Of a DNA stretch of 25,489 nt, positions 1,665 to 24,312 are shown piece by piece (positions within the stretch are counted from its first letter, which is position 1; every line of letters begins with the position of its first letter). Origin of the DNA: a virus; the IMG/VR virus record IMGVR_UViG_3300028920_000247, positions 1 through 25,489 of that record, one strand, 5' to 3'. Below the pieces are notes generated by a model that had not been told where the DNA came from, did not search any database, and saw nothing but the letters and a program-made list of their open reading frames with translations. A program made the translations under genes and the position numbers.

Positions 1665-2936
1665 TTATTTCTCCTTGAATTGAGCAAATGCTTGTTGAGC
1701 ATTCTGTATTATTGATGGCCTTGGATCTTCTTCTTTTACCAGTATTGGCCCTCCTGATAAAGTAGAGTAGAGATCTTTAAACTCTTTACTCTTCTTCAAT
1801 TCTTTACTTAACTTCTCTGCTTTGGCTACTGATATAAATTTAGTTTCAAATACGTTAGAAAAGTCAAAAGGGGTACTTTGATCCTCAGCAAGTGCTACCA
1901 AGTACTCCTGGGCTTTTTCAGGATCTTTCCACTTCCTACTATTTCTACCTGCCACCACCTTGTAACCAGGAAAACCTGTAGCAGTACTACATCTGTTCAT
2001 AGCATAAGTATTTAATTCGGATATAAAAGTTTTTATCATATCTGTTTTTTCAAGCAGGTCTTTCAATTCTTCATCTGGTATTACTTCCATTTTAAGTTTG
2101 TTTGTTTCTATATAATTAGTAAATACATCCTTAGCATCTTCTATTACTTTAGCAGTACGAGCAGGACATTTTGCTCCTAAACAAAATTGACACTGTTTTT
2201 TACCTGGAATCAATTTTGCTTTATCGTTTCTTGACTCAATTATACCTGGAGCAAGTTCAAATTCAAGCCACTTCGATAACTCATTAGCTGAAGTCTCCCA
2301 ACAAGAGAAGTAGTCTAAACGTGGTTGGACTATATGTATACGTATATCTGGATGGGCTTTTAAATCAGTAAGACTATCAAATGTACCAGTAGCATAACTC
2401 ATGCCTTGAATATTATTTGGAGCAGTAACAGGTACACCTGCTCCAAACTTAAAATCTATAACATCTCTTCTTTTAAGTAGATCGCATTTAAGTACAACAT
2501 CTGAATGGCCAGATACTTCGGGTAGTCCATACCATTCAAGAGTAGTAGGGGACTCAAGAAGCACTTCTATAACCCCGGTTTTCATTAACCGAAATAATAT
2601 ATCTTTCATTTTCTCTTCCGTCTTTACTTCTAACGATTTAAAAGCAATATATTCATTTGTTATTTCGTAAAGTACTTGTAACACATAATCGAAACATTCT
2701 TGAACTAAAGTTTCGTGTTCTTTATTTGCTAAAACAGTAAATATAGGGCTATTATTTTCTATCCATGTTTTTAATCTTTGCTCAACTATTTCATGGAGCA
2801 TAGTACCTTCTTTAGCAAAGGATGAAGTACCTGTTGGGTTTTCTCTTAACAGTCTCCTACTGCCTGGGCAGAGTAAGATACGTTGTACCTGACTGGGGCT
2901 ACATTCACTATGTACTGTCTTGTTTTGTTCTAACAT
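1665..2936 (-). CDS. DUF2800 / RecB-Cas4-like PD-(D/E)XK nuclease
   Basis: A 423-residue protein of the DUF2800 family, in the PD-(D/E)XK (RecB, Cas4, AddB) nuclease superfamily. Seen in order: SPSQVQRILLCPGS near residues 13-26; EGTMLHEIVE near 43-52, with the superfamily His; GHSDVVL near 143-149 with the metal-binding Asp; and VIDFKFG near 159-165 giving the Asp-x-Lys catalytic pair (D161, K163). Cys23 plus C249, C252 and C257 match the one-plus-three cysteine layout of AddB/Cas4-type 4Fe-4S nucleases. It probably degrades or processes DNA ends in phage recombination or replication. The ATG at 2936 follows AAGGAG with 8-base spacing. It sits between the primase-helicase and a small conserved gene. 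The nuclease fold is confident; the Fe-S cluster is inferred. Confidence 0.85.
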   Translation of the reverse strand: MLEQNKTVHSECSPSQVQRILLCPGSRRLLRENPTGTSSFAKEGTMLHEIVEQRLKTWIENNSPIFTVLANKEHETLVQECFDYVLQVLYEITNEYIAFKSLEVKTEEKMKDILFRLMKTGVIEVLLESPTTLEWYGLPEVSGHSDVVLKCDLLKRRDVIDFKFGAGVPVTAPNNIQGMSYATGTFDSLTDLKAHPDIRIHIVQPRLDYFSCWETSANELSKWLEFELAPGIIESRNDKAKLIPGKKQCQFCLGAKCPARTAKVIEDAKDVFTNYIETNKLKMEVIPDEELKDLLEKTDMIKTFISELNTYAMNRCSTATGFPGYKVVAGRNSRKWKDPEKAQEYLVALAEDQSTPFDFSNVFETKFISVAKAEKLSKELKKSKEFKDLYSTLSGGPILVKEEDPRPSIIQNAQQAFAQFKEK

Positions 2937-2951
2937 TTACTCATCTCCTTT

Positions 2952-5471
2952 CTATTCTATTTCGTTATTAATTATACTATCTTCTGATAGTATCGGTGGC
3001 ATTATATAATACTTGGTAGAGTTGCCTTTCATGATATTAATGCTTCCTTTCTGTACTACTGTTTGATAAGCAAAACTTTCTTTTTTAGCACAATCTTTAA
3101 AAAGTTTTCTACTCATTCTGTTAGTGCCCGTATACCATCCAGCGTATCTTATTAACTCATTTCTTATATCGCTTTCCTTAAATGGCATTCTCCTATTGAT
3201 ATTTAAAAACTCTACCATAGAAGGAACAGTCCAAAAACGAGGGGACTTTTCTGGGTTGCTATTCAACTCCCATAGGTCATTACGTTTTGCTACGATATGT
3301 CTATCAAATCCCTTACGGGTAGTAGATAATAGCTCTTGTGGATCAAAGGTTTTACACGTGTCAGTATCTACTCCAAAAGTAGAACTAAATACCCCTCTTA
3401 CTCCTATATCACTGCTATCTTTACTTTTATTAAATTGATTTGTAAGTTCCCGTTCTTCAGGAGTAAGGCTCCAGGCACTTTGTATCAGTTTGTTTGGATT
3501 TTTTCTTTTGTACTCCTCTAAAGTTTTATAGATATGACCAAATAAATTTTGCCTATTAATACTCTTTAAGTACATTGTATCACAAGCAGTAACGGGAGTA
3601 TGCCATAACTTTCTCGAGCCATCATCACTCGAAAAGAATTCTGTTTTATTAGTAGTGCCGATGTTTACTGCTTTTATCCTTCTCGCATCAGGGGTGTTTA
3701 TATACAAGTCCCTATAATCTGTATCCTCTGTATCTACACTGGACTTGATTTTATACTCATATTTAGGAGTAAGAAGTTTTTCGCATTCATTTATTACCAG
3801 TAGTACATTAGAACAAAGAAATCTATCCCATTCAATATCACTTTTTAAAATACTATCAATCCTGGGTTTAGCCATAAATGGCCTCATCTCTGGGGGTAGT
3901 AACCACTCAGCCCATGACGTTTTATAAATTGCCTCTGGCCCTGAGAGTAGTAAAAACCCATATGTTTTAGGGTTGTCCTCTGGATACATATGAATACCGA
4001 CCATCGACAGAAGAGTATTTTTTATAAAAGTTCTACATAAATCATAGTACTTACTTGGTACACTATCACTTATAGTTAGTGAGTTTATTACTGGAGTCAG
4101 TAGATCCTCTTCTTTATTAGGGGCACTTTTACAAAACTCTAACCAAAGATTTACCGGTTTTGCTTTAAGTATAGTAAGTTCTTTTGCTATGTTTGCTACA
4201 TCTTTTCCTATATTGTAAGTGTGACCAAACCCTTGTTGAACGTAGGGTAGAAAGAAAGTACCCAGTTGTTTCTCATTCATCATTTGACTAAATTCAGGAG
4301 GTCTATAAGTCTTGTACTCCTTCAAAGGACTAAACATCCTACCATTGCTGTTATCATGAATCATAAACTCTATAGGCGCTTTAAAACCGTACCTATCAAG
4401 TATATCATCCTTTACAGGGATCAAGCCATCATACTCAAAAAGTGCTTCTATATTCTCCACACTCTTTGGGTTAGGGGCACCGTTTTTTAGAGTGCGAGTA
4501 AAGTTTGCTCTACTATCTCTCGCCATAACAGCTAAGGTATTAATAGTAACGCATTCATTACTTCTACCTTCTTGTATTTTATACCGAGTAGTGCGAAGAA
4601 AACTTTTAAACTTTTCTACTACATCATCTCTATCGATATACTTTTCTTCATCTTGTGTTGACCAGTTATGGTACAAGTCAAGTATTGTTTGTGTCTTCTC
4701 TTTATCACCAACATGTTCGTATAATACAGCCACATAAGCACAAGCCATACCTACTGTGTACCAGTAATCGTATGCTCCTGATATCTTTGTATACTGTAGA
4801 TTTCTACAAGCTTGTTTTGCTCTGTAGTCATATTGAGGAGGTATAATAGATAAGTACTCTGTAAGTAACTCTAAATCAGTATCTGATATAAAAGGAGTGA
4901 TCGATTTAAAAGTAACTTGGTTTTGCCTCTTGAGTGAAGGTAGTAGTCCAGTGATAGTATCAAAATCAATATACGCTATATCCTCTGTGGACTTCTCATA
5001 TAAGTTATTAGTAAAGACCAGAAACCCTGTACTGTATCTGAAATCTCCAGTAAATATACTACCCTGCTCTATAGAGGTTTTACCCTGAGATGCTTTTACT
5101 CCTGCTAACTTCATTTGTGTTTCGATGTCTACTCTATAGATGATATGTAACCCTTGACCACTGGGCGAGTAGTGAGCATGAGTAGGATGTTCATCTAAGA
5201 AATCAAATACTGCTGGAGGTAGTTCTGTAGTAGCATCTTTCTTTACTCCGGTATTGTCTACGTCTACGTCAAAAGCGATATAGTCTTTCTGTCCCTGAAA
5301 AACAAAACCGTAATAAGGGCTACCCCCTTTCTCTTCCGAAGCATTTTGTACCGCTTCTTCATAGGGAAGGCATTTTCCTCTTCCCAGTCCTTGTGCAGGT
5401 ACTTTATAACTATCTTTCTTTTTATTGTATACACAGTGAGTCCATTGAATTTGTTCTTTTAGCCTTTCCAT
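2952..5471 (-). CDS. PrimPol-SF3 helicase replication protein
   Basis: An 839-residue fusion of an archaeo-eukaryotic-type primase-polymerase and a superfamily 3 (VirE/VapE, D5-like) helicase, the probable core of phage DNA replication. The N-terminal primase domain (about 1-170) shows the metal-binding DxD in FDVDVD (D68, D70) and the nucleotide-binding block YSPSGQGLHIIY (101-112). A helical linker resembling PriCT domains follows (about 195-300). The helicase has Walker A GPEAIYKTS (511-519), Walker B VLLVINE (about 556-562), a sensor-like GTTNKTEFF (605-613) and a probable arginine-finger segment DDGSRKLWH (616-624). A basic C-terminal tail may bind DNA. The ATG at 5471 is preceded by GAGGGG. 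It lies 17 bases after the putative DNA-binding gene and directly downstream of the candidate origin. Domain calls are by motif only. Confidence 0.9.
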   Translation of the reverse strand: MERLKEQIQWTHCVYNKKKDSYKVPAQGLGRGKCLPYEEAVQNASEEKGGSPYYGFVFQGQKDYIAFDVDVDNTGVKKDATTELPPAVFDFLDEHPTHAHYSPSGQGLHIIYRVDIETQMKLAGVKASQGKTSIEQGSIFTGDFRYSTGFLVFTNNLYEKSTEDIAYIDFDTITGLLPSLKRQNQVTFKSITPFISDTDLELLTEYLSIIPPQYDYRAKQACRNLQYTKISGAYDYWYTVGMACAYVAVLYEHVGDKEKTQTILDLYHNWSTQDEEKYIDRDDVVEKFKSFLRTTRYKIQEGRSNECVTINTLAVMARDSRANFTRTLKNGAPNPKSVENIEALFEYDGLIPVKDDILDRYGFKAPIEFMIHDNSNGRMFSPLKEYKTYRPPEFSQMMNEKQLGTFFLPYVQQGFGHTYNIGKDVANIAKELTILKAKPVNLWLEFCKSAPNKEEDLLTPVINSLTISDSVPSKYYDLCRTFIKNTLLSMVGIHMYPEDNPKTYGFLLLSGPEAIYKTSWAEWLLPPEMRPFMAKPRIDSILKSDIEWDRFLCSNVLLVINECEKLLTPKYEYKIKSSVDTEDTDYRDLYINTPDARRIKAVNIGTTNKTEFFSSDDGSRKLWHTPVTACDTMYLKSINRQNLFGHIYKTLEEYKRKNPNKLIQSAWSLTPEERELTNQFNKSKDSSDIGVRGVFSSTFGVDTDTCKTFDPQELLSTTRKGFDRHIVAKRNDLWELNSNPEKSPRFWTVPSMVEFLNINRRMPFKESDIRNELIRYAGWYTGTNRMSRKLFKDCAKKESFAYQTVVQKGSINIMKGNSTKYYIMPPILSEDSIINNEIE

Positions 5472-15721: not shown

Positions 15722-15796
15722 TGCAGGGTAGAGTAATGGTAACTCGTTAGCTTCATACGCTAAAGATCACAGGTTCAAATCCTGTCCCTGCTTCCA
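15722..15796 (+). tRNA. tRNA with anticodon CAT (Met, or Ile2 reading ATA)
   Basis: A 75-base cloverleaf: acceptor 15722-15728 with 15786-15792, D-stem GAGT/ACTC (15731-15745), anticodon stem TTAGC/GCTAA (15747-15763) with loop TTCATAC and CAT at 15754-15756, variable AGATC, T-arm ACAGG-TTCAAAT-CCTGT (15769-15785) and encoded CCA (15794-15796). The anticodon stem lacks the three G-C pairs of initiator tRNA, so it is not a standard fMet tRNA. Oddities: a U-U mismatch at 1-72, U at the discriminator and C at position 38. CAT can read ATG, or ATA if the C is changed to lysidine; ATA is frequent in this phage, which favours Ile2. Identity is therefore uncertain. Confidence 0.88.
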
Positions 15797-17384: not shown

Positions 17385-17876
17385 ATGGCTTATACTCCAG
17401 CAGATACGTCAATATTAAATGAAGTAGAGGCAAGACTTGGAAATATTACTACAGCTAATGGGTATAACAACGAGTTTAAAAGAATATCAAGGGCGAGAAT
17501 GAAACCCTTTAAAGGTTTTGATCTACCTGCTTGCAACGTATATCATGGCACAGTGGAATCTATTAAAACACCCTACGGCACTCAGAGTAAAAAACAGTTT
17601 CTAATTATAGAAGCACATTCAAAAACTCATGATGATCCGTTTATTGATATAGCTGATTCTCTTGCTGCTGATATAGTAACGGGTCTTTTTCGAAAAACCA
17701 TTTCACCTAAAGTGTCTGATGATGTGAGTACTGCTTTAGGGGGCATAGTTAAAAATTTAATTTTCACTGGGCATGATCCTTTTATTGGTTCAGGGCAAGA
17801 ACCTTTTTGTGGTACCCTGGTGAGATTTGAAATAGAGTACGAAACTGCTATCGGTAATATGGAGACTTTTGAGTAA
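17385..17876 (+). CDS. Putative tail terminator / minor tail protein
   Basis: A 163-residue protein in the position of the tail terminator (lambda gpU-like): after the head closure gene and before the major tail protein. It begins with a helix (TSILNEVEARLGNI), has a beta segment (KKQFLIIEAHSK), a helix DIADSLAADIVTGLFRK, and ends with CGTLVRFEIEYETAIG, a strand typical of the terminator fold. The start ATG directly follows the tiny basic gene; the ribosome binding site is weak. The assignment depends on order and predicted fold more than on strong motifs. Confidence 0.6.
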   Translation: MAYTPADTSILNEVEARLGNITTANGYNNEFKRISRARMKPFKGFDLPACNVYHGTVESIKTPYGTQSKKQFLIIEAHSKTHDDPFIDIADSLAADIVTGLFRKTISPKVSDDVSTALGGIVKNLIFTGHDPFIGSGQEPFCGTLVRFEIEYETAIGNMETFE

Positions 17877-17954: not shown

Positions 17955-18977
17955 ATGGCAAATTCGGAGAATGCAAAAATCCAATTCGAAGCAGGGCAAG
18001 TGTTAACCACTTATGAAGCGATGACAGATTCAGGAGATCATCAAGTTTTTACTGCTACTGAGAATGTTTGGTCTGGTAAGTCTGGTTATACACCGTCGAT
18101 TCGACCAAATGGTATGGTAACAGGTAGGAATGTTTTATCTGCTTCGGCATCTACTAATGATACTGTAGTAATCGCAGCATTTACGGCTTATTCAAAAGGG
18201 GTGTTAAAAACGGTCAATGCCACTACTCAAGCAATCACCAGAACAGCTACGGTGGATGTTGCTCAAATCCATTCGATTACTATGGCCAGTGATGGGAGTA
18301 TTGCAGTGGTTGAAGGTTTGGTAAGTGCAGATACTTCTTTTAGTGAAACAAGAGGCGCGGCAGGCGGGCCTCCTTTGATTCCTGTAAATGATGTTGAAGT
18401 AGGGCAAATAAGGGTAACAGATGAGGCGGCAGCCTTACTTACTTCATCTGAGATCTTTCAATTGGTGGGTACGCATACTGAAAGATATGATTATCCCGGA
18501 TGGACTGAAAATAATATCGGGGATGGGCTTACTGCAAGTGAATCGGCTAAGACAAATGCATATGTTGAGTTTGATTCTGTACTGCCTTTGATTCATACGG
18601 GTCCAGTTGCGAAAGCGGCATTTGCTCAATATTATGCGCCTTCATTTGTAGATATGAGTAAAACAATGGATTTTGTGCCAGTGGAAAATTCTCATTCAGT
18701 ATCATCCACTCAAGTATATGGAAAAACTATTGGCTCAAGGTCTTCTTCAATTGGTCAAGGTTCTTTTACTGCCATGCTTAACGATGGGGTAACTGATGCT
18801 TTTGTTGGTCTTAAGGATGAGATTATCACTATTAAATTTTTTCCTGATAAAAATAAAACGCCTTATGTTTTGACACAAGGTAAATTGGGGCTTGGTAGGA
18901 CATTCCCTGTGTCCGATCAAAACCAAGTAGCAGTAACTGTTTCAGCAGATAATATCTCAGCGGAATTTACCAGCTAA
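17955..18977 (+). CDS. Major tail protein (tail tube), putative
   Basis: A 340-residue protein, beta-rich and Thr/Ser-rich, with a very strong AAGGAGG site (17942-17948), as expected for an abundant structural protein. It starts MANSENAKIQFEAGQVLTTY, and the C-terminal half has long strand segments (IITIKFFPDKNKTPYVLTQG, AVTVSADNISAEF). Its place just after the probable tail terminator and before the tail chaperone genes fits a tube protein; it is longer than many tube proteins (about 150-250), leaving room for an added surface domain. It overlaps the next gene, a sulfotransferase-glycosyltransferase, by one base, hinting that this protein or a neighbour is the substrate. Family assignment is by position. 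Confidence 0.65.
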   Translation: MANSENAKIQFEAGQVLTTYEAMTDSGDHQVFTATENVWSGKSGYTPSIRPNGMVTGRNVLSASASTNDTVVIAAFTAYSKGVLKTVNATTQAITRTATVDVAQIHSITMASDGSIAVVEGLVSADTSFSETRGAAGGPPLIPVNDVEVGQIRVTDEAAALLTSSEIFQLVGTHTERYDYPGWTENNIGDGLTASESAKTNAYVEFDSVLPLIHTGPVAKAAFAQYYAPSFVDMSKTMDFVPVENSHSVSSTQVYGKTIGSRSSSIGQGSFTAMLNDGVTDAFVGLKDEIITIKFFPDKNKTPYVLTQGKLGLGRTFPVSDQNQVAVTVSADNISAEFTS

Positions 18978-20797
18978 TGATATTAATCACTGGCCATCCT
19001 CGTTCTGGAACGAGGTATACAGCTAATTTACTTCAAGCAGCAGGAAAGAAATACGGGCATGAAGTTATAGAAGAAGACGGAGTAGTTTCATGGCTACATA
19101 TTTCTAAGGGTGGTAAAGTATCCTGGCTGCCAGAGGTAATTGACGGACTTTCATTTGGTGATGCAGAAGATAAAAGAGCAGCAGTGGAAGAACAAACCGA
19201 ATGGGAAAAAGTAATTCATTTAGTGAGGAATCCACTGGATGTGATTTCATCTTCTCAAACTCTCTCCAATGAAGCGTTTGAGTATATGTTTACTACTCTT
19301 AAAGATCATCCTGGCGGGGAACGTTCTTTAAGATGGTACATGTGGACATGGTTAAAATGGAATGAGTCAATTGAGCAATTAGCTGAATACCGATTTAAAG
19401 TTGAGGATCTTAATAATAATAAATCTAAGGTACTTCATAAGTTTTTAAAACTTACAGGGAGTGAAGTACCTGAGATATTTCCATCAAAAAATGTAAATGC
19501 AAGACCGCATAGTGACTACACTTGGCTTGATTTAGAACTAGAAGATAAATACTTATGTGAAGCAATTAAATGTAAAGCAAGAGAATATGGGTATGCTCCA
19601 TTTACTTTTGGGGCCATCATAATTGCTAAGGATGAAGCGCATAATTTACATAGGTGTTTATCGTCAATTAAGCCATTAGTAGATGAAATAATTTTTGTTG
19701 ATACGGGATCGGTAGATGGCACCCCTACTATAGCTGAAAGTTACGGCGCTAAAGTATATCACCATCCTTGGGAAAATAATTTTAGTTTACATAGAAACCA
19801 AAGTTTAAGTTATTCAACTTGTGATTGGGTTATTCAAATAGACTGTGATGAAGAGTTATGCGGAAATGTAATCGATTTACGATTTCAAGCTTTATCTGCA
19901 GAACTTCAAGGCTTTAATGCCGTAGCAGTGCTTTTTAAAGATATGCAAGATGGAAAACAAGCAATGCAGTTTAATGCTCCACGCGTTTTTAAAAGAACTG
20001 CTGTACATTATGAAGATATAGTGCACAATAGGCCGGTGTTTGAAGGCAATGCGGCAATGGGTACGGGCAATGCTTCGGTATGGTTTCAGCACTATGGGTA
20101 CGATATTGAACCTAAAAAGAAACATAAAAAGTTAATACGTACTAAAGAACTATTAGAAAAAAGAATAGCTGATAATAAAGATGATATTCCTGCTTATTTT
20201 TATTTATCACAAGTTGAAGGTGAATTAAACAATAATGAAAAAGTACTCCAATTATGTGAGCACTATATAAGCCATAAAGACCAAGTGAAAGAACGTTTTA
20301 ATGATAGTGTTTACTATACTCATTTACAAGCTTTATTTGTTACTGACAAAGGGCGATATTCAGAAAAATATGTTTCGACATTAAATAAATATATGAATGA
20401 AGTGCCGAATAATTTAGATATTATTTTTGCTGCAATGGAGTATTCAGCAGCAGTAAATAACATTAAACTTTTAAAACAGGCAGCGGATAAGTTTATTTCT
20501 AACTATATTAAATATGGGGTTGATTCACCAGTTCAAGGAAGTACTTTTATTTATACATACAAACCTGAATGCTTTTGCATGGCTCTGTTTTATTCTTCTA
20601 CTCTTTCTTTCAGTACGGGCATAAAACATTTAGATATGTTTAACAAAGTACTCCCCGCAACAAATAAAGAATTTAAAAGGAAAGCTGCTAAAGATATGCG
20701 AATTGCTTGTAAAAATTTAGGAATAGATTGGAAATATTCAAATGGGCAAGAGTCAAGGGAGAAGGTTAAACCGAAAAAGAAAAAGGGGAAAAAGTAA
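18977..20797 (+). CDS. Sulfotransferase-GT2 glycosyltransferase fusion
   Basis: A 606-residue two-enzyme fusion. Residues 1-205 look like a PAPS-dependent sulfotransferase: GHPRSGT (6-12) is the 5'-phosphosulfate loop, and VIHLVRNPLDVISSS (79-93) the 3'-phosphate-binding segment, followed by KVEDL (141-145). Residues about 209-375 are a GT-A family 2 glycosyltransferase: FGAIIIAKDEAHNLHRCLSS (211-230), EIIFVDTGSVDGT (237-249) and the metal-binding IDCDEE (288-293). The C-terminal part (about 376-590) is helical and TPR-like, with a Lys-rich tail. It probably adds sugar to a protein or glycan and sulfates the product. The ATG overlaps the tail-protein stop by one base; no good ribosome binding site is visible. 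Its place in a tail operon is unusual. Confidence 0.85.
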   Translation: MILITGHPRSGTRYTANLLQAAGKKYGHEVIEEDGVVSWLHISKGGKVSWLPEVIDGLSFGDAEDKRAAVEEQTEWEKVIHLVRNPLDVISSSQTLSNEAFEYMFTTLKDHPGGERSLRWYMWTWLKWNESIEQLAEYRFKVEDLNNNKSKVLHKFLKLTGSEVPEIFPSKNVNARPHSDYTWLDLELEDKYLCEAIKCKAREYGYAPFTFGAIIIAKDEAHNLHRCLSSIKPLVDEIIFVDTGSVDGTPTIAESYGAKVYHHPWENNFSLHRNQSLSYSTCDWVIQIDCDEELCGNVIDLRFQALSAELQGFNAVAVLFKDMQDGKQAMQFNAPRVFKRTAVHYEDIVHNRPVFEGNAAMGTGNASVWFQHYGYDIEPKKKHKKLIRTKELLEKRIADNKDDIPAYFYLSQVEGELNNNEKVLQLCEHYISHKDQVKERFNDSVYYTHLQALFVTDKGRYSEKYVSTLNKYMNEVPNNLDIIFAAMEYSAAVNNIKLLKQAADKFISNYIKYGVDSPVQGSTFIYTYKPECFCMALFYSSTLSFSTGIKHLDMFNKVLPATNKEFKRKAAKDMRIACKNLGIDWKYSNGQESREKVKPKKKKGKK

Positions 20798-20798
20798 A

Positions 20799-21263
20799 AT
20801 GGCTTTTGATATTAAAAAATTTAGAAATCTAAAAACACAACCGAGAATAAAAGAAGTAACTATTTCTCAATTACAAGTATTATTTGATGAAGATGAAAAG
20901 CCAGTTTTTAAAGTTAGAAATCTCACTGGACATGAATTAGCTCTATGTAATGAAGCAGTAAAAGCTAATACTCAGATAAGGGCTTTAGTTGAAAAACTAT
21001 TATCTGAAAGTGCTAAGGAAAAAGCACAAGCTATATGTGAAAGTTTAGGAGTAAATAGTGATAAAACCCCAGATGATTTAGTTAGGAGAATACAATTACT
21101 TAGATTAGGAGTAATTGAACCTGAATTAACACATGAGGATTGTGTTAGATTTGCGTCTATGTTCCCCGAACCTTTTTATGATTTGACTAATCAAGTACTA
21201 CAATTGACGCATTTAGGTGCAGACTTGGGGGAGTACAAAGACTCTGGAATGATCAAGGAATAA
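20799..21263 (+). CDS. Tail assembly chaperone, first ORF
   Basis: A 154-residue protein at the site of the lambda gpG-type chaperone: between the tail protein region and the tape measure. It is mostly helical and charged (FDIKKFRNLKTQPRIKEVTI, ELALCNEAVKANTQIRALVE, then DLVRRIQLLRLGVIEPEL and VRFASMFPEPFYDLTNQVLQ). ATG 20799 is chosen over TTG 20742, because the earlier start would run inside the Lys-rich end of the preceding gene, and AGGGG lies close before 20799. Such chaperones coat the tape measure during tail assembly and are often extended by frameshifting into the next ORF. Confidence 0.7.
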   Translation: MAFDIKKFRNLKTQPRIKEVTISQLQVLFDEDEKPVFKVRNLTGHELALCNEAVKANTQIRALVEKLLSESAKEKAQAICESLGVNSDKTPDDLVRRIQLLRLGVIEPELTHEDCVRFASMFPEPFYDLTNQVLQLTHLGADLGEYKDSGMIKE

Positions 21264-21265
21264 GA

Positions 21266-21415
21266 ATGAGTATGATAATGGCTCATGGAGGCGGAATGGG
21301 TTCACAAAGATTTCTTTTTGAGATCAGACCGGATGTCTTTCCAGAGGGATTCTTAACACCTGTCGAAATTGAATTATGGATAAAGTTTTTTGGAGATAAA
21401 AAACAAAGGACGTAA
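21266..21415 (+). CDS. Tail assembly chaperone, second ORF (possible -1 frameshift partner)
   Basis: A 49-residue ORF (MSMIMAHGGGMGSQRFLFEI onward, ending KKQRT), two bases after the first chaperone ORF and in its -1 frame. The -1 frame is open from 21191, so a ribosome slipping in 21191-21260 could make a fusion. A run of five Gs (21227-21231) lies there, in TTG GGG GAG. The pattern fits the P-site slip but not the A-site, so frameshifting is uncertain. AAGGA (21255-21259) before ATG 21266 allows separate translation. It contains an aromatic helix (IELWIKFF). Confidence 0.55.
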   Translation: MSMIMAHGGGMGSQRFLFEIRPDVFPEGFLTPVEIELWIKFFGDKKQRT

Positions 21416-21417
21416 AA

Positions 21418-24312
21418 ATGGCCGATGTACGTAAGACCATAGAAATTGTATTTCAAGGTGATGATCAATTGACAGGCACAGTCGGTGGTATGTCAAGCGC
21501 ATTTGGTCAACTTGAAAGTGGGGTTCTTGCTGTAGCAGAACCCCTTTCAAAACTCGCCGATGGTATACTTGCTGCTGATGCAACCTTGGCAGCTTTAGCT
21601 ATTGGTGGTCTTACGTACGCTTTTCAGAAATCAAAAGAATTTGAAAACTCTTTAATTGAATTAAAAAAAGTCACTGATGGTAGTACAGAATCTATAGAAA
21701 AAGCTAAAAAACAAGCTTTTGAGTTGTCTAGTGTCTACGGGGAATCTTCAAGTAGTATATTATTATCTACTGCTGATATGATTCAAGCAGGGTATAATTT
21801 AGATGATGCTATGGCCTTGACTGCTAAATCGATGGATTTAGTTATTGCTGGGGGTTTAGGAGCGTCACAAGCAAGTGAAATCCTTATCGCTACATTAAAA
21901 GGTTTTGATGCTCCTGCTTCTGAAGCAGCAAGACTTACAGATATATTAAATGAAGTAAGTCAGAAATACGCTACAAGAGTGGATCAACTGGCAATTGGCA
22001 TGAGTAAGATTGCCCCTATATCAAAATTAATGGGGTTTTCATTTGAGGAAACAGCGGGACTTTTGACCCCCGTTATAGAAGTATTTAGGTCAGGGGACCA
22101 AGCAGCATTCGCTTTAAGGACAGGACTTTTAAAACTTATTGATGATGCCGCACCAGTAAAAGAAGCGCTTGCAAAATTAGGTATATCTCAAACAGACCTT
22201 AACGGTAAGTTAAGATCAGGTAAGGATGTTCTATTAGACGTTGCTGAAGCCTTTAAAACAGCAGAACAAAATGATAAGTTATTTTTAACCGCTCAGTTAG
22301 TAGGTACTGAACAATCAGCAAGAATGGTTACAGTATTTGACAACCTTGCTAAGTATACAGATATCGTAGGAGTAGCTTTAAATTCAGCAGGTAGCGCAGC
22401 TAAGGAAGTCGCTTTAAGATTAGAAAGTGCAGAAGTACAAGTAAATCGATTTAAAACAGGATTTGAGAATTTAGGGATAGCGGTTGGTGATCAGTTTAAA
22501 GCGGCAGCAGTAGGCGCTATTAGTGGCATGACTGATATAGAAAGTGCTATTTCTACTGGCGTTACAAGCGGAGCATTTGAACCCTTATTTAAAATATTAA
22601 GGGAAGCAGGAGATGAACTAGGAAAATTTTTAAAAGACATAGCTAAAGCGTTACCTGAAGCATTTGAAAAATTAGATTACTCGGGTATTTTAAAAGGGTT
22701 CGAAAGTATACGAGACGTCATAGGGGATCTTTTCGGTGGCCTTGATTTAAGAGAACCTGATGATTTAGCTATAGCACTACAAAAAGTAGTGGATACAATT
22801 GAAGCGCTATTAATAGTCACTAGGGGCATGATTGAAGGGTTCGCTCCTTTCTTTGAAGCTATCTCTCAAGGAATAGCTGAAGTTAGAAATATGGATGATG
22901 AAACTGCTAAAGCCTTTGGAAATATACTAGCTTCAGCTAAATTAATTACAGATGCAGGAATTGCCATAGCTGCTTCTATGTACGCAATTCAACAGAGTGG
23001 AGTAAGTATAGGCGCGGTATTTGACGCGGTTATAGGGAGTGTTACAGTGGTTTGGAATTTACTACAAGCCTCATTTTCCGCTACTGTTGCAAAAATTGTT
23101 GGGGTAGTAGAATTTTTTGTATCAAAATTTAATACAGTTTTTCAAGTAATCCCTGATGTTATAGCTAATGCTATCCCTGGTCTAAGTGATTTTAGAGATG
23201 GTTTGCAAGAAACGACTACTGGTCTTCGGAATTACCAAGCAGCTGTTCAGATGGACTTAACGGATGATCTTGGAGAAGCATGGGAGGGGGCAAAAAGAGC
23301 AGCAAGTGCATTTACTGATAGTACTAAAGAGGCCACTGAAGAGGCTAAAGATTTTGGTAGTGCGATAAAAGAAATACCCGCAGAAACAAAAATTAAAATT
23401 GATACGGATGTTTCTTCAGCAGAAGATATAAAAAAAGAACTTGCAGTAATAGAAGCAAGAGCAGCCCAGATAAAATTTAAGTTATCAGAAGGTTCACTTG
23501 ATGTAGGATTTGCAAATAGAGCACTTGATAAATTACATGACAGATCAGTTGAATTACAAGATGCTTTGAATTTTAAACTTAATGTTGATAGCGTTGGAAT
23601 TGATAAAGTAGAGTCTGCTATTAATGAATTGCCCGAAGAAAAGATGGTTGAGATTTGGGTAGACGGAAAAAAGATTGGTGAAGTATCAGAAGAATTAGAA
23701 AAGAACTTTCCAGATAAATTTGATTCTGAAGTGCAATTATTAATCGACAAAGCGTCTCTTGAAGAGACTACAAAAGAAGTAGATAAAGCAGTCCCTGAAG
23801 AAAAAGATTTAAAAGTGTCTGCCAAATTAGATAAAGAACAAGCAGAACGAAATTTAAAAGAGTTAGGAATTAAAGCAGATGTTCTGCAAGCGTCTTTTGA
23901 TTATAAAGCTAAAGTTGATATAGCAGAAATAGAGGCCGCAACAGCAATCACCCAATCAGCTTTTACTTCTCTTACCGAGACATTAGCAGGGTCCGCCGAC
24001 ATACTACAAGCTTATTCAGGGGCATATTCAGAAGCTGATTCAGCTTCTAAAAGATTATTTCTTCAGACTCAAATAAGAGAAGAAAGCGCAAGAAGAGATA
24101 AAGAATTAAGATTACAAGAGCAATTAATTGAAAAACAATTAGAGTATTATGAAGCAAGAGCAGAAGCAGCAGAACGAGGTGACGCCTTAGTCCAGATAGA
24201 TGGTACAGGTTTACAGCCACACTTAGAAGCTATTATGTGGGAAGTACTCGCAGCGATTCAAATAAGAGCAAATGAAGAAGGCCAAGCGGCCTTATTAGGG
24301 TTATCGGTATGA
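21418..24312 (+). CDS. Tail tape measure protein
   Basis: A 964-residue tape measure, which sets tail length and passes into the host during infection. The N-terminal part has the TP901-type core (SKEFENSLIELKKVTDGSTE near residue 77, ELSSVYGESSSSILLSTADM, SEILIATLKGFD, KIAPISKLMGFSFEETAGLL). The middle is hydrophobic and Ala-rich (ITDAGIAIAASMYAIQQSG onward, then AKIVGVVEFFVSKF), typical of membrane-penetrating segments. Residues about 656-840 repeat short beta-alpha units, and the C-terminus is coiled-coil (RRDKELRLQEQLIEKQLEYY). At about 0.15 nm per residue, a tail near 145 nm is expected. AAAGGA precedes the ATG. It overlaps the next gene as ATGA. Confidence 0.92.
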   Translation: MADVRKTIEIVFQGDDQLTGTVGGMSSAFGQLESGVLAVAEPLSKLADGILAADATLAALAIGGLTYAFQKSKEFENSLIELKKVTDGSTESIEKAKKQAFELSSVYGESSSSILLSTADMIQAGYNLDDAMALTAKSMDLVIAGGLGASQASEILIATLKGFDAPASEAARLTDILNEVSQKYATRVDQLAIGMSKIAPISKLMGFSFEETAGLLTPVIEVFRSGDQAAFALRTGLLKLIDDAAPVKEALAKLGISQTDLNGKLRSGKDVLLDVAEAFKTAEQNDKLFLTAQLVGTEQSARMVTVFDNLAKYTDIVGVALNSAGSAAKEVALRLESAEVQVNRFKTGFENLGIAVGDQFKAAAVGAISGMTDIESAISTGVTSGAFEPLFKILREAGDELGKFLKDIAKALPEAFEKLDYSGILKGFESIRDVIGDLFGGLDLREPDDLAIALQKVVDTIEALLIVTRGMIEGFAPFFEAISQGIAEVRNMDDETAKAFGNILASAKLITDAGIAIAASMYAIQQSGVSIGAVFDAVIGSVTVVWNLLQASFSATVAKIVGVVEFFVSKFNTVFQVIPDVIANAIPGLSDFRDGLQETTTGLRNYQAAVQMDLTDDLGEAWEGAKRAASAFTDSTKEATEEAKDFGSAIKEIPAETKIKIDTDVSSAEDIKKELAVIEARAAQIKFKLSEGSLDVGFANRALDKLHDRSVELQDALNFKLNVDSVGIDKVESAINELPEEKMVEIWVDGKKIGEVSEELEKNFPDKFDSEVQLLIDKASLEETTKEVDKAVPEEKDLKVSAKLDKEQAERNLKELGIKADVLQASFDYKAKVDIAEIEAATAITQSAFTSLTETLAGSADILQAYSGAYSEADSASKRLFLQTQIREESARRDKELRLQEQLIEKQLEYYEARAEAAERGDALVQIDGTGLQPHLEAIMWEVLAAIQIRANEEGQAALLGLSV

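Follow-up and report, generated by a model that had tools for sequence, protein, structure and literature searches.

A gene joining sulfotransferase-like, GT2 and TPR-like parts beside the tail-tube gene of an uncultivated virus, and its possible role in decorating the virion

The fusion gene and its neighbours in the tail operon

The window, meaning the whole stretch of DNA analysed here, is a 25,489-base IMG/VR virus record and represents an uncultivated viral contig, as do the contigs of its relatives. Its tail operon contains the following features.

17385-17876, + strand: tail-terminator-like gene (weak match to phrog_4204, tail terminator, E 0.032; position conserved)
17955-18977, + strand: tail-tube (major tail) protein, 340 aa, with an insert at about residues 50-180 (AlphaFold pLDDT 93.1; fold matches)
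18975-18977, + strand: stop codon of the tail-tube gene, read from the sequence, with the last base of TAA forming the first base of the fusion ATG
18977-20797, + strand: fusion gene of sulfotransferase-like (ST), GT2 and TPR-like parts, 606 aa, open from ATG to TAA
18977-19594, + strand: ST-like domain, residues 1-206, with R9-S10-G-T12, H28-E29, R84...S92 and E143-D144 (PF13469, 28.6 bits for the domain alone; residues kept in 6/6 fusions except G11 and T12)
19598-20101, + strand: GT2 (GT-A) domain, about residues 208-375, with D289-C-D291 (PF00535, 6.6e-16; GmaR, 1.8e-21; SunS/ThuS fold)
20111-20716, + strand: helical/TPR-like C-terminal part, about residues 379-580 (secondary structure of the model; inside the SunS/ThuS alignments; TPR Pfam matches in homologues)
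20799-21263, + strand: tail-assembly chaperone (a family conserved in the interval from tail tube to tape measure; -1 extension)
21191-21415, + strand: open -1 frame over the chaperone 3' end, a probable frameshift product, ending 3 bases before the tape-measure start
21418-24312, + strand: tape-measure protein (PF10145, 2.4e-32; phrog_4211, 3.6e-47)

A first-pass annotation of this DNA had described a sulfotransferase and a GT2 glycosyltransferase joined in a single chain, and the uninterrupted frame of 18977-20797, with the quoted motifs GHPRSGT, LVRNPLDVISS and DCD all present in its translation, agrees with that description. The one-base overlap with the upstream gene was likewise correct, base 18977 being shared by the end of TAA and the start of ATG. 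The helical/TPR-like part at residues ~379-580 had been overlooked, and the 606-aa chain therefore has three parts rather than two. The structure model of this protein has a mean pLDDT of 88.0.

The gene upstream had been taken for a major tail protein, and the fold matches of its model are indeed tail-tube proteins, with the T1 tail tube (9l0f_G, 2.3e-4) as the top Foldseek match followed by lambda V and others, and a VIA score against the R4C tail tube of Z 12.0 over 121 aligned residues (rmsd 3.0). Its product corresponds to phrog_30644, whose function is not annotated in PHROG. The inserted domain of this protein resembles a phi812 baseplate protein (VIA Z 13.1, 20% identity, 112 residues). 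Further upstream, the tail-terminator-like gene marks the edge of the slot which enzymes occupy in the relatives described below.

The true start of the chaperone gene is the ATG at 20799, one base past the fusion stop, and the start at 20742 in the list of open reading frames is a mechanical one. A PHROG search with this gene returned no match. In 16 hand-picked chaperone loci, the -1 frame was open across the chaperone stop in all 16, its end falling anywhere from 18 bases short of the tape-measure start to 16 bases past it, and a GGGGGA run lay near the stop in 15 of the 16 loci inspected. A -1 frame extension is the usual arrangement of tail chaperones, and its conservation here backs the earlier identification of the downstream gene as a tail-assembly chaperone.

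Domains of the encoded protein and their conservation

The same two-domain order was sought in other phage tail modules and was found in five further distinct proteins (L003, L013, L014, L108, and L142), for a total of six ST-GT2 fusions including that of the window. Conservation among these six was used to assess the N-terminal domain, whose match to Sulfotransfer_3 (PF13469) straddles the cut-off of 27 bits, with 25.6 bits (1.7e-5) for the whole protein and 28.6 bits for the domain alone. Four of ten homologous ST domains matched PF13469 at E 0.01. A profile search of the PDB with the domain gave sulfotransferases as the best matches, with E from 0.039 up and unrelated proteins mixed in lower down, and the fold match lists for the whole fusion model were filled by the glycosyltransferase (GT) domain, residues 42-47 and 51-73 having pLDDT <50. 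R9, S10, H28, E29, R84, S92, E143, and D144 were invariant in 6/6 fusions, and R9, S10, R84, and S92 are what we take to be the 5'- and 3'-phosphate binding motifs of PAPS sulfotransferases. G11 and T12 varied among the six, with F in place of T12 in L108. Because the other five fusions are only 30-58% identical to the window protein, this conservation of motifs is above chance. Judged by its sequence, the N-terminal domain appears to be PAPS-type sulfotransferase-like, with a similarity that is modest.

The GT2 domain matched Glycos_transf_2 (PF00535) at 59.1 bits against a gathering cut-off of 23.3 bits (6.6e-16), and D289 and D291 of its DxD motif were invariant in 6/6 fusions and nearly invariant (at least 90%) in alignment A7. 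Its top PDB sequence match was GmaR, a flagellin GlcNAc-transferase (1.8e-21), whereas the GT2 and TPR parts together were closest in fold to the peptide S-glycosyltransferases ThuS and SunS (Foldseek, 2.5e-17). In VIA both parts were superposed on these two enzymes, with Z 25.8 (288 residues, rmsd 3.7) and Z 24.0 (283 residues, rmsd 2.5), and the next GT2 enzymes fell below Z 18, in match lists that leave room for other folds. The cut-off of the SunS equivalog model TIGR04195 (NCBIfam) was missed, at 57.6 vs 350 bits. The nearest solved relatives of the GT2 domain thus act on proteins or peptides, which favours a protein substrate without proving one, and the TPR-like C-terminal part is a possible dock for the acceptor.

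Relatives and the slot beside the tail tube

Each of the six fusion genes directly adjoins a gene from this one tail-tube family, lying downstream of it in four cases (window, L003, L013, and L108) and upstream in two (L014 and L142). Homologues are found within structural operons, and their motif residues are not degenerate. The first-pass annotation had also considered enzymes to be rare at this point in tail operons, a view contradicted by the counts in this phage group. In an unbiased scan, the tail-tube alignment picked up 355 relatives, and 80 loci were kept; leaving out L155, for which the profile made no tail-tube call, the remainder amounted to 71 distinct tail-tube proteins. A GT2 relative was present in the fetched stretch for 23 of the 71, always within two genes of the tail-tube gene (one gene away in 19 and two genes away in 4) and on either side of it. 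The fetched stretch contained no GT2 relative for the other 48, which indicates that any modification is dispensable for the fold.

The enzyme found in this slot varied in its partner. The 23 comprised 10 long ORFs labelled GT4-GT2, 9 with GT2 alone (one cut by a contig end), and 4 ST-GT2 fusions. The GT4-GT2 label came from Pfam in 4/4 long proteins scanned (L031, L045, L047, and L059), for L128 and L118 it was backed by a PHROG glycosyltransferase match of the N-terminal part, and the remaining rows of the trees were labelled by length alone (over 650 aa). In three of the four two-gene cases (L107, L124, and L136), a hexapeptide acyltransferase gene lay between GT2 and tail tube, and in L115 the intervening gene was an ORF of 93 aa, possibly spurious, whose sequence overlaps the GT gene. 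L106 and L146 carried GT2 alone on one side of the tail tube and a separate sulfotransferase of ~210 aa on the opposite side (PF13469, 1.1e-9 and 1.2e-11). This separate enzyme and the fused domain are not orthologs, as hhalign aligned 30 columns only with a probability of 22. Across relatives, then, the partner of the GT2 domain is exchanged among a fused ST domain, a fused GT4-type domain, a separate non-orthologous ST, and an acyltransferase. Two other combinations were observed in passing: a phage protein of 1005 aa with GT4-type, methyltransferase, and GT2 parts in one chain (L089, 2009-5026), and a GDSL lipase/acylhydrolase two genes upstream of a tail-tube gene without a nearby GT2 (L110, 2882-3991).

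When the fusion was searched directly in 50,697 phage records, 16 records were returned and the GT part alone was matched in all of them. Bacterial genomes gave 26 loci, none covering both whole domains: 22 matched the GT part, L197 matched residues 163-425, and L201-L203 matched the ST part. The bacterial locus L178 is phage-like and tail-tube-adjacent. The four viral loci with the ST part only (L095-L098) had no adjacent tail tube by profiles. On the chromosome of Sedimentitalea nanhaiensis, a 504-aa protein (L203, 5152-6666) combines a GT25 domain (3.5e-6) with the match to the ST profile, and is perhaps another fusion of a sulfotransferase with a glycosyltransferase.

When a quick tree was built from 76 tail tubes, with GT state known for 70 rows, the presence of the GT changed 3 times over the 70 rows compared with a mean of 20.7 after shuffling, and among the 25 GT-positive rows the side changed 3 times and the partner 5 times. 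The enzyme and the tail-tube type therefore seem to travel together while side and partner move, although clustering of this kind is also expected from relatedness after few acquisitions. The tree of the GT itself had patchy support and long branches.

A second genomic context emerged from a scan with the GT2 domain, which gave 202 relatives and 80 kept loci. Eleven of these were tail-tube adjacent, and 33 lay within three genes of a major head protein assigned to phrog_212, an assignment checked in three loci. One more was beside a protein of ~155 aa, and 35 were near neither, some of them lying at contig ends or, judged by other markers, in tail regions. For a virion-directed role of the enzyme, the 33 loci beside a second structural gene count in favour and the 35 unplaced ones against. 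The ~155-aa family (L018, 2477-2932, and homologues) usually has its gene flanked by the phrog_212 capsid gene on one side and the GT2 gene on the other; it had no PHROG match and no PDB match at E 1. In this capsid-side phage group, the ~155-aa protein is a possible acceptor.

A possible role in decorating the virion

The earlier suggestion that a virion protein is decorated gains comparative support from the homologues in structural operons, the kept motif residues, and the protein- or peptide-modifying nearest relatives of the GT2 domain; the sulfated sugar that it included we retain as a conditional step, and the ends that it proposed, adhesion or the hiding of epitopes, stay speculative. 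Our preferred reading is that the fusion is probably a cytoplasmic enzyme or cassette for the glycosylation of virion proteins, with the tail-tube subunit encoded upstream as the most likely acceptor and with sulfation as an optional addition. The enzyme would be produced alongside the tail proteins in the cytoplasm, where the GT2 domain, with the TPR part docking the substrate, would transfer a sugar from a nucleotide sugar to a protein side chain, so that the tail tube would be glycosylated before or during assembly. The N-terminal domain would next transfer sulfate from PAPS, probably to that sugar, and since a tail contains many subunits, negatively charged glycans would be arrayed over the surface of the tube. 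Relatives would replace the second step with a second glycosyltransferase, a different sulfotransferase, or an acyltransferase, and such an exchangeable second step would make the locus a slot for virion-decorating cassettes. More tentatively, and with slightly less than even confidence, we suggest that a widespread siphovirus-like group of phages coats its tail tubes with sulfated or otherwise decorated glycans by means of an exchangeable cassette of glycosyltransferase and tailoring enzyme beside the tube gene.

For the ST step, the main rival is direct sulfation of the protein, in which a virion protein would still be modified but the sulfate would be placed on a protein side chain, as in tyrosine sulfation, apart from glycosylation. 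In tyrosylprotein sulfotransferases a Glu in the region of E29 serves as base, and none of the 12 ST sequences aligned departs from E29, which stands within H-E in 11 of them. In addition, the PDB matches of the separate L106/L146 sulfotransferase at E <=0.1 were all protein-tyrosine sulfotransferases, if weak ones (best 0.02). That enzyme, however, is not the ortholog of the fused domain, and exchange with GT4 and acyltransferase partners suits the decoration of a sugar better, so we regard direct protein sulfation as unlikely.

We place at a similar level the idea that the acceptor is a different virion or tail-assembly protein, such as the tape measure, the terminator, or a fibre. When 25 GT-positive and 21 GT-negative tail tubes were compared by column, no S/T/Y/C position separated them cleanly, and any residue difference between the two sets would be confounded by ancestry; no acceptor residue was thus found in the tube. 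The relatives near the major capsid gene in another phage group also imply that the acceptor can differ. Against this, it is the tail-tube gene that is touched from either side, and the presence of the GT tracks the tree of the tube, which argues for the tube subunit as acceptor.

A role on host surface glycans, for instance in superinfection exclusion or serotype conversion in the manner of GtrB-like phage enzymes, appears less likely still. PHROG annotates the GT as a beta-1,4-glycosyltransferase of the moron class (9.4e-20), GtrB-type matches occur but are weak (0.013), and three of the ST-only viral loci (L095, L097, and L098) lie amid glycosyltransferase, LicD, methyltransferase, or sugar-aminotransferase genes. 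The late tail operon site, touching the tail-tube gene in 6/6 fusions, and the nearest folds, which act on proteins or peptides, both speak against such a role. That the gene is a moron inserted by chance with no functional tie to the tail fits its lack in many phages of the group, but is very improbable given the same slot in diverged phages, the occurrence on both sides, the exchange of partners, and the conserved motif residues.

Glycosylation of the tail tube by the fusion would have precedents. Glycosylation of virions by phage enzymes is established in mycobacteriophages, and was reportedly described for Che8, Corndog, and Myrna by Freeman et al. in Cell Host Microbe in 2023. According to two articles citing that work, the mycobacteriophages' own glycosyltransferases act on capsid and tail-tube proteins (PMC12363180, PMC11600133). 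Che8 gp108 is similar to the window protein in that a GT2 domain is fused to a sugar-modifying type of enzyme, there a methyltransferase, but gp108-110 are located at the right end of the Che8 genome. The Che8 trio consists of a GT2-methyltransferase, a weak GT2, and a GT25 (gp110), and gp108 and gp109 have nothing beyond the broad PF00535 family in common with the window protein. In a search of these three proteins the GT2-TPR profile reached at best 5.4 bits and blastp at best E 0.05, and a sulfotransferase match was found in none of the three. If our reading is right, the window system would work like the mycobacteriophage one, but by sequence it does not belong to it.

GmaR, the flagellin O-GlcNAc transferase of Listeria, shares the order of a GT2-type domain followed by TPR helices and modifies the subunit of a helical filament. 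Its GT domain puts GlcNAc on flagellin and its TPR domain is proposed to bind flagellin, but GmaR is also an antirepressor with extra C-terminal domains (PMC9638930); it is without a sulfotransferase. SunS and ThuS, the glycocin S-glycosyltransferases, have a common fold with the window protein across GT and helical dock, and they too are without a sulfotransferase, whereas the window protein is far below the SunS equivalog cut-off and its gene adjoins that of a tail tube. Sulfotransferases are also encoded by other phages, OM43 phages among them; these enzymes belong to the same broad Pfam family (PF13469) and their role has been called unclear (PMC10580990). Unlike them, the window domain is fused to a GT2 in a tail operon. 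Among the titles and abstract openings searched in the open-access literature, none described a tail-operon gene that joins ST and GT2.

If the proposed reading is true, virion glycosylation would extend to uncultivated phages of another kind through a different enzyme family, with the tailoring enzyme fused in one chain and the tailoring step exchanged between relatives. It would also mean a sulfated bacteriophage virion, giving phage sulfotransferases a role, and the locus would offer a direct way to test what a sulfotransferase does in a phage.

Several other genes of the window deserve mention. A Mom family protein (PF25680, 3.6e-46), of a phage DNA-modification family, is encoded at 7855-8463 on the + strand just upstream of the terminase gene; DNA modification was considered as a role for the fusion on account of this gene, and nothing ties the two. 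Padloc, run on seven other window proteins, reported no defence system and one weak methyltransferase match. The region 1665-5471 on the - strand encodes a DUF2800 protein (2e-59) and a PriCT-2/VapE-like primase-helicase protein; a weak NCBIfam match of the former to a retron St85 effector (4.5e-4, far below cut-off) is doubtful because of the Pfam result. Lastly, a tRNA-Met (CAT) gene lies within the head-tail operon at 15722-15796 on the + strand.
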